A DNA stretch of 14,151 nt from contig JAIVHR010000022.1 of the NCBI GenBank assembly GCA_020200935.1, forward strand, positions 1 to 14,151, read 5' to 3'. Source of the DNA: Sphingomonadales bacterium (lineage in GTDB: Bacteria > Pseudomonadota > Alphaproteobacteria > Sphingomonadales > Sphingomonadaceae). Of this stretch, positions 6,918-11,641 are shown piece by piece (positions within the stretch are counted from its first letter, which is position 1; each line of letters starts with the position of its first letter). The position numbers were made by a program, and so were the translations under genes. The notes below the pieces were generated by a model, which was given only the letters and a program-made list of their open reading frames with translations, was not told where the DNA came from and did no database searches.

Positions 6918-8939
6918 ATGCCCCGCACACCCTCCGGCCTGCCCAGCGAGCAGCAGATACTCGATTTCCTTGCAACCTCCGACCGTCCGGCCGGCAAGCG
7001 CGAGATCGCCAAGGCCTTCGGCCTGACCGGCGACGATCGCGGCAGGCTCAAGGGACTGCTCAAGCAGATGGCCGACAAGGGCATGCTCGATAGCGGCCCG
7101 CAAAAGAAGCTGCACAAAGCGGGCGGCCTGCCCAAGGTGACGGTGCTGATCGTCACCGATGTCGACGATGACGGCCAGATCTTCGCCGAACCCGAGCGTT
7201 GGGACAATGACGCGCCGACGCCGAAGCTGCGCATCAAGGAGCGCGGCAAGAAGCATCCGCTCGGCATCGGCGACCGCATTCTGGCGCGGACCGAGCAGGC
7301 CGGGAAGGGCTGGATCGCCCATCCGATGAAGAAGCTCGAGCCGGGCAGCGCCGAGCTGATGGGGGTGATCCACGAGGAAGGCGGCGAGCTCTGGCTCAAG
7401 GGGCTGGAGAAGAGCGACCGGCGCGATTTTCGCGTCATCGACGCCAACCGGGCGAGCGCCGGCGATCTGGTGATGGCCGAGAAAAGCGGCCGGCCGCCGC
7501 GGATCGGCGTACGGGTGACCGAGATCCTCGGCGATCCCTTCGAGCCCAAGAGCTTCTCGCTGATCGCGATCCACAAGCACGAGATCCCGGTCGAGTTTCC
7601 CGACGAAGTCCTTGCCGAGGCCGAAGAGGTGGCGAAGCTGCCGCTCGGCGAGCGCGAGGATCTGACGCATCTGCCGATCGTCGCGATCGATCCCGAGGAT
7701 GCGCGCGACCATGACGACGCGATCTGGGCCGAGGCCGACGGAGAAGGCGGCTTCGACGCGATCGTCGCGATCGCCGATGTCAGTTTCTATGTCCGCCCGG
7801 GCTCCGAGCTGACGGCCAACATCGCCTATGAAAATGCGCAGGCGGCGATCGACGGGACGCAGAGCGGGATTTCCGACGAGTTGCGCGATGCCGCGCTCAA
7901 GCCGCTGTGGGATTGCTGGAAGCTATTGTTCAAGGCGCGCGCGGATCGGGCGCCGCTCGAACTCGACCTGCCCGAGCGCAAGATCCAGCTCGACGAGAAG
8001 GGCCGCATCCTCTCGGTCGCGCCGCGCGAGCGGCTCGATGCGCACCGGCTGGTCGAGGACTATATGATCGCCGCCAACGTCGCCGCCGCCAAGGCGCTCG
8101 AGGCAAAGCAGGCGCCGGTGATGTATCGCGATCACGAGCCGCCGAGCCGCGAAAAGCTGGTCGCGCTCAAGGATTATCTCGACAGCTACGATATCCCCTT
8201 CGCGCTCGGCCAGGTGATCAAGCCCGATAGCTTCAACCGGCTGATCGACAAGGTCGGCGATGCCGATGCGCGGCCGCAGATCATGGAGCAGATCCTGCGT
8301 ACCCAGATGGCCGCCTATTACGGGCCGAACAATACCGGCCATTTCGGGTTGGCGCTCGGGAGCTACGCGCATTTCACCTCGCCGATCCGGCGCTATGCCG
8401 ATTTGATCGTCCACCGATCGCTGGTCGGCGCCTGGAAGCTCGGCCCCGATGTCGGAGCGACGAAGCTGCCGGGTGAGCAGGCCAAGGCGATGGAGCAGCT
8501 GGGCGAGGTGATATCCCGCCTCGAACGCCGGGCGATGGAGGCCGAGCGCGACACCGTCGACCGCTATGTCGCGGCCTTCCTGTCGGAGCGCGTCGGCGAT
8601 GTCGTCGATGCGCGGATCACCGGCGTCCAGCCCTTCGGCTTCTTCGCCACCGTCGACGGCCTCGGTGGTGACGGGCTGCTGCTCGCCCGCGATCTCGGCC
8701 GCGAATGTTACCGTTACGAGGAAAAAGCGCAGGCGCTGATCGGCAACGATTCGGGGACCCGCTACCGCGCCGGCGATCGGCTCGAGCTGCGATTGGTCGA
8801 GGCCAACCCGGTCAGCGGCGGATTGCGCTTCGAACTCCCCGAGGGGAAGGGCGGGGGGACGCGGCCCGATAGCGGCAAGCCGCGGGGAAATACGAAGAAG
8901 AAATCGCGCCGCGGCAAACCACGGCGTTCGCGCTCCTAG
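6918..8939 (+). CDS. rnr: Ribonuclease R, with an apparent internal deletion in the RNB catalytic domain
   Basis: RNase R is a processive 3'-to-5' exoribonuclease that degrades structured RNA. In order: an N-terminal helix-turn-helix-like region (about 8-60), cold-shock RNA-binding domains (about 75-225), the RNB domain from about 250, an S1 domain (about 562-640), and a basic tail ending in KKKSRRGKPRRSRS. The metal-binding cluster IDPEDARDHDD is intact, with Asp258, 264, 266 and 267 at the spacing of E. coli Asp272, 278, 280 and 281. HFTSPIRRYADLIVHR (485-500) is also intact. However YVRPGSEL (291-298) runs straight into TANIAYENAQAAIDG, where the family normally has about 66 more residues, including the NSxYFPDRVVPMLPE-type block. 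The 673-residue length is short by about that amount. Whether the enzyme is active is open. Confidence 0.9.
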   Translation: MPRTPSGLPSEQQILDFLATSDRPAGKREIAKAFGLTGDDRGRLKGLLKQMADKGMLDSGPQKKLHKAGGLPKVTVLIVTDVDDDGQIFAEPERWDNDAPTPKLRIKERGKKHPLGIGDRILARTEQAGKGWIAHPMKKLEPGSAELMGVIHEEGGELWLKGLEKSDRRDFRVIDANRASAGDLVMAEKSGRPPRIGVRVTEILGDPFEPKSFSLIAIHKHEIPVEFPDEVLAEAEEVAKLPLGEREDLTHLPIVAIDPEDARDHDDAIWAEADGEGGFDAIVAIADVSFYVRPGSELTANIAYENAQAAIDGTQSGISDELRDAALKPLWDCWKLLFKARADRAPLELDLPERKIQLDEKGRILSVAPRERLDAHRLVEDYMIAANVAAAKALEAKQAPVMYRDHEPPSREKLVALKDYLDSYDIPFALGQVIKPDSFNRLIDKVGDADARPQIMEQILRTQMAAYYGPNNTGHFGLALGSYAHFTSPIRRYADLIVHRSLVGAWKLGPDVGATKLPGEQAKAMEQLGEVISRLERRAMEAERDTVDRYVAAFLSERVGDVVDARITGVQPFGFFATVDGLGGDGLLLARDLGRECYRYEEKAQALIGNDSGTRYRAGDRLELRLVEANPVSGGLRFELPEGKGGGTRPDSGKPRGNTKKKSRRGKPRRSRS

Positions 8940-10436: not shown

Positions 10437-10991
10437 CTAAAGCTTGGGCAAGGTCACGCCCTTCTGGCCCATATATTTGCCGGCGCGGTCGGCATAGCTC
10501 GTCTCGCAGGGCTCCTCGCCCTTGAGGAACAGGAATTGGCAGGCGCCCTCGTTGGCGTAGACCTTGGCGGGCAGCGGCGTGGTGTTGGAAAATTCGAGCG
10601 TCACATGGCCCTCCCAGCCCGGCTCCAACGGCGTCACATTGACGATGATTCCGCAGCGCGCATAGGTCGATTTGCCGAGGCAGATGACGAGGATGTCGCG
10701 CGGCACGCGGAAATATTCGATCGTCCGGGCGAGCGCGAAGCTGTTGGGCGGGATGATGCAGACATCGGTCTTGCGGTCGACGAAGCTGTTCGAGGAGAAG
10801 TTCTTGGGGTCGACGAGCGCATTGTCGACATTGGTGAAGATCTTGAATTCGTCGGCGGCGCGCGCGTCATAGCCGTAGCTCGACAGGCCGTAGCTGATCG
10901 TCCCCTCACGGCGCTGGCCGTCGACGAAGGGTTCGATCATCGCGTCCTCGAGCGCGCGCTCGCGGATCCAGCGGTCGGCCATGATGCTCAT
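10437..10991 (-). CDS. dcd: dCTP deaminase
   Basis: The cytoplasmic enzyme deaminates dCTP to dUTP, feeding dTMP synthesis through dUTPase and thymidylate synthase. The 184-residue sequence carries [12 protein letters not shown] near residue 33, [10 protein letters not shown] (81-90), the conserved GKSTYARCG with Ser108 and Arg112, and [15 protein letters not shown] with catalytic Glu133. These correspond to E. coli Ser111, Arg115 and Glu138. The C-terminal [14 protein letters not shown] is the nucleotide-covering tail typical of the family. The start at 10991 (MSIMADRW) overlaps the stop of the GH25-like gene as ATGA, which suggests translational coupling; the second Met at 10982 is the alternative. 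Last gene of a tight three-gene run. Confidence 0.96.
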
Positions 10992-11641
10992 GGGTTATCC
11001 TTAGCGCTTTCGGGCGGCCTGACGACAGACCAGCGGACCGGGTTTTCCACACCTTCGACCCGGCGGATGTCGCTCGCTTCCCAGATCGCCCAGGGCACCG
11101 CGCCGTAATCGGGCGGGAACAGCCGCCGCCGCAGCCAGAAGGAGCGTTCGTAGAGCACCGCCGGATCGCCGCTATAGGGCTCGATCGCCTCGAGGAAGGC
11201 TGTCAGTTCGGCGATCAGCAGCGCGACATCGGGCCGGTCGGCGCAATCGTCTTCGAGATCGAGCATCACGGCGGGCGGCAGCATGTCGGGATCGCGCGGC
11301 ACATTGGCGAGGAAATTGGCGATCTGGTCGGCGCCGAGCCGGCAGAGCCGCCATTTGTGGACGACGCCGTAGCGCAGCCCCGCGGCGATCGCGCCGCCGC
11401 GATTGATCGCAAAGCGCGGATCGCGCGCCTCGTCGCCGTCTGTCGCCAGCAGATAGGCGAAATCCGCCCCCGCGCCCTTCAGCGTCGGCCAGTGGACGGC
11501 GCCGTCCGTGGCCGAGATCATCACTCCCTGCGTCGGATACTGGCTCTCGGCCGGTCGCCAGCCGATCGCCGCCTGCCACAGCGCGAAGCCGGCCGCCGCG
11601 GCGCAGAGAAGCAAGATGAGGATCCAGGCGAAGCTCCGCAT
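10988..11641 (-). CDS. GH25 (lysozyme-like) family membrane-anchored protein, possibly catalytically altered
   Basis: The 217-residue protein has one N-terminal membrane segment or uncleaved signal (about 4-25) and an exported GH25-like domain. The family backbone is visible: [13 protein letters not shown] (39-51), FAYLLATDG (61-69), [10 protein letters not shown] (74-83), [12 protein letters not shown] (86-97), and [10 protein letters not shown] (121-130), which keeps the DxE pair as Asp128-Glu130. GH25 enzymes normally begin with GxDxS, whose Asp is part of the active site; here that position is Met41, so lytic activity is doubtful or altered. Canonical members cut the MurNAc-GlcNAc bond of peptidoglycan. 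Cys100 and Cys133 could form a disulfide. The start is 1 base after the UPF0262 stop and the end overlaps dcd by ATGA. Confidence 0.78.

Follow-up and report, generated by a model that had tools for sequence, protein, structure and literature searches.

The window analyzed here, a whole contig of 14,151 nucleotides (C240) from a Sphingomonadales bin, carries an RNase R gene (rnr; positions 6918 to 8939, forward strand) that encodes, as assembled, a protein of 673 residues without 65 residues of its RNB domain. This raises the question of whether the organism possesses a shortened RNase R or whether the gene was shortened between the cell and the contig. Three readings had been offered in an earlier note on this DNA: a natural short form, a non-catalytic derivative, and a deletion or assembly artefact of about 200 bp. 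The last is strongly supported by the present analysis, and the signs for the other two are weak and unspecific. We consider it very probable that the gap is an assembly or library artefact and that the RNase R of the organism is ordinary and full length.

The gap in rnr

The junction lies at positions 7811/7812 (forward strand), between L298 and T299 of the 673 residues, and 195 nt are missing relative to aligned relatives, with the reading frame intact. The in-frame loss at this place had been predicted correctly by the earlier note; its size, put there at about 66 residues, is exactly 65. Alignment with relatives, the check proposed at that time, bore out the loss: all 120 (the best 120 of 7,998 passing) have 65 additional residues between window residues 294 and 312. 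When proteins from a search with window residues 275 to 330 were added, 222 of 223 other proteins showed the 65 residues in the alignment, and the exception (P0121) is a misplacement by the aligner, its own sequence having the 65 residues. The clean 65-residue alignment gap rules out a segment that is diverged but present. Two measurements of spacing agree with the alignments. Among 342 proteins (the window protein included), an alignment-free measure gave the common spacing in 306, the window protein alone was short, and 35 were unmeasurable because of sequence ends or a differing motif. In DNA, a motif pair showed a single spacing in all 70 matching loci of a set of 110, some of which represent one genome fetched twice; the 40 loci without a motif-pair match include the window's own locus, L001.

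RNase R was matched in 38 of 39 relatives' genomes, and none of the relative matches listed crosses the rnr junction. A second complete rnr, which the earlier note had suggested looking for, was not found in the searched part of the genome, nor was another RNB gene or the missing segment, and a full-length relative used as the query found no other matching place there at an E value of 10.

Properties of the assembled protein

The gene is the same as that encoding RNase R in Parasphingopyxis and other Sphingomonadales, and its product is 77 to 78% identical to the full-length sister protein P0001. The product falls below the curated cut-off of the RNase R equivalog family TIGR02063 (467.3 versus 597.85 bits), and its RNB domain is incomplete, with positions 1 to 54 and 120 to 320 of the 326 profile positions matched. 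CSD2 and S1 domains score above the Pfam cut-offs, and the first cold-shock domain is absent from that listing. The missing part, which contains many nearly invariant columns, corresponds to approximately positions 233 to 297 of the E. coli chain 5xgu_B, as read off the alignment. We take this to be residues 313 to 377 of full-length E. coli RNase R, with Tyr324 inside, in agreement with the earlier note. The assembled protein thus differs from RNase R of the TIGR02063 type in lacking 65 RNB residues that include, by alignment, the tyrosine responsible for setting the end product. In the available text of one study, Tyr253 of RNase II is described as setting the end product and the same role is given for RNase R (PMC3293843). 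The RNB active-site Asp cluster (IDPEDARDHDD, residues 257 to 267; positions 7686 to 7718) and the TSPIRRYAD block (positions 8376 to 8402), both on the forward strand and placed from the sequence, are retained, as had been claimed; the active-site role of the Asp cluster is described for RNase II in the same available text (PMC3293843).

Outside the gap, the gene has changed at an ordinary rate. The end branch of the window protein is 0.27, compared with 0.24 for P0001, and 4 of 234 near-invariant sites are changed, a number equalled or exceeded by 6 of 120 relatives; relaxed selection on the remaining gene is not evident. Such a rate fits an artefact, a recent deletion, and a kept function equally well. 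It could be cited, together with the intact frame, the retained metal-binding Asp residues, and the count of changed near-invariant sites, in favor of an internally shortened RNase R that is functional but yields products of a different length, or of a non-catalytic RNA-binding derivative, either of them maintained by selection. We regard such a selected protein as highly improbable: the loss is common to none of the 223 aligned proteins, the lost segment is rich in nearly invariant columns, and the intact form exists in what appears to be the same species (P0121, described below). AlphaFold2 models point weakly in the same direction. Block means of pLDDT at residues 241 to 300 were 29 to 42 for the window protein and 73 to 92 for P0001, both predicted from the same 38 sequences, with low pTM values (0.37 and 0.40) and a poorly modeled later half of the RNB domain in both. 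If a 673-residue product were real, it would most likely be inactive, because a conserved RNB stretch and the tyrosine are lost and pLDDT at residues 241 to 300 is low, although the evidence for this is weak. A literature search for naturally truncated RNase R with an internal RNB domain deletion returned no papers.

An intact copy in a second bin

A search with window residues 275 to 330 ranked P0121 first. This NCBI record (“MAG: ribonuclease R family protein, partial [Parasphingopyxis sp.]”; 458 residues) comes from another bin of the genus and matches the window protein exactly, both in the 375 residues that follow the junction and in the 18 that precede it, with the 65 residues in between; the record begins 18 residues upstream of the junction, and upstream identity therefore covers those 18 alone. 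Because 393 residues are identical while the next relative is at 77 to 78%, P0121 and the window in all likelihood represent the same species; among the named records listed, those of Parasphingopyxis are highest in identity. The earlier note had suggested looking for the same deletion in sister strains, but P0121 has the segment, which argues against a fixed natural deletion.

The start of P0121, 54 to 56 nt upstream of the junction, may fit a fork in an assembly graph at the junction with a k of 55 (an assembly value that we assume), with both forms in one read set. A fork of this kind would mean that both forms occurred together, which favors a real and recent 195-nt deletion in some cells, i.e., a loss-of-function allele of rnr coexisting with the intact form, and the ordinary rate of change in the rest of the gene suits such a deletion as well as it suits an artefact. 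However, the best 120 of 910 passing matches included no identical fragment that approaches the junction from the left and stops there, the top match being 75% identical, and the other losses in the bin, which are mostly out of frame and affect genes such as sdhA and glmM, are hard to believe real. We therefore consider a recent deletion improbable, and it is marginally less probable still that a true deletion allele segregates in a natural population alongside the intact form, with its carriers producing an RNase R that binds RNA but has no activity.

Similar losses elsewhere in the bin

The bin comprises 2.1 Mb in 343 contigs and is 66.09% complete and 0.87% contaminated. Losses were counted in the window and 60 further contigs (61 of 343; 440,965 of 2,107,072 bases) against a single genome of the same genus (G009, 1.6 of 2.96 Mb), with cut-offs of at least 60 nt for split losses and at least 20 residues for in-frame gaps. 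The 107 gene matches yielded 9 split losses, 3 in-frame gaps, 2 insertions, and 3 small frameshifts. When the alignments were read by eye, 10 of the 12 flagged losses were clear; the other two, a gap in a proline-rich stretch (L210) and an event in dapD (L229) with overlapping alignments, were set aside. The frame is broken in 7 of the 10, namely, sdhA, glmM, creD, and genes for a biotin-carboxylase-type subunit, an aldo-keto-reductase-type protein, an enoyl-CoA-hydratase-type protein, and one protein without an NCBIfam match at an E value of 1e-20. The three in-frame losses are in rnr, a gene for a lactate-dehydrogenase-type protein, and a third gene whose product we take to be a sirtuin-type deacylase; the aldo-keto reductase, hydratase, and lactate dehydrogenase matches lie below the curated NCBIfam cut-offs. 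In addition, the exonuclease III gene lacks 45 residues in frame and stands outside the count, being below its identity cut-off; with it, the clear losses number 11, of which 4 keep the frame, close to one in three. Lost lengths in other conserved genes of the bin are approximately 74 to 455 nt and mostly out of frame (L125, L192, L224, L217, L123, and L219). The G009 versions of sdhA, glmM, creD, and the exonuclease III gene cover almost the full length of their NCBIfam profiles, and the gaps are therefore losses in the bin rather than insertions in G009. Broken reading frames of sdhA and glmM are unexpected in a free-living cell unless other copies exist.

As a control, 80 named loci were put through the same test; among 209 matches there were 13 insertions but no losses and no small frameshifts. 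These control loci lie around rnr and had been selected for their similarity to the window protein rather than as a random sample of genes, and since each of the 80 matches rnr, the matches to other genes number at most approximately 129. The bin thus shows an excess of similar losses (12 flagged, 10 of them clear, in 107 matches, versus 0 in 209). Extreme G+C content was rejected as a cause of the losses, as the lost segments (0.48 to 0.68) lie in genes of 0.56 to 0.62 with no clear trend, the segments having been cut from G009 for 8 of 10 gene pairs, one of which is the doubtful dapD event.

The window itself probably contains another dropped segment. A gene for a 217-residue protein (positions 10988 to 11641) lacks 15 residues at a junction at positions 11149/11150 (reverse strand); this loss is below the 20-residue cut-off and outside the 12 flagged. 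The 15-residue segment is present in all six matching control loci, two of which match at only 43 to 45% identity, and a search for the gene in L002 to L030 gave no match.

Because P0121 is intact and similar losses, mostly out of frame, exceed those in the control, the loss in rnr most likely arose in assembly or library preparation rather than in cells. The contig would have lost 195 nt at one of these stages, and losses in the bin would arise without regard to reading frame; the loss in rnr would happen to be a multiple of three and so resemble a neat internal shortening. As the other losses are mostly out of frame, an in-frame gap in rnr can be viewed as a one-in-three outcome. Chimeric reads are one candidate mechanism, and a short false join is another. 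The overlap implied at the junction by the protein and the window DNA is at most short (one Leu codon), and nothing therefore points to a long repeat that simply collapsed. True gene decay in the genome could give a similar picture. Pseudogenes could also have a technical origin in sequencing or assembly, as noted in the available text of PMC11017572, and like technical pseudogenes and misassemblies in drafts and bins, the losses of conserved genes described here fall both in and out of frame and have well-conserved flanks.

A natural variant of rnr is thus not supported, and the locus reveals nothing new about RNase R. It does provide a warning that when a gene in a draft bin loses a segment in frame, the result can mimic a new protein variant, and claims of gene loss or of variants from this bin need care. 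Counts of in-frame and out-of-frame losses across an assembly, combined with an intact record from the same species, can go far even without reads.

Three further observations on RNase R deserve mention. G024 is the sole genome of 40 without an RNase R match at an E value of 0.001, though it is 99% complete. The partial RNase R P0310, which comes from a Sphingomicrobium bin, resembles its kin as far as the middle of the RNB domain and is strongly different thereafter, possibly owing to a chimeric contig. Finally, G016, a genome of the same family (86% complete and 7% contaminated, in a single contig), shows two copies of rnr, both of which are broken, possibly by sequencing errors; they yield nine matches altogether (C1:64665-66680 and 2873491-2875603), and one copy contains an internal stop.
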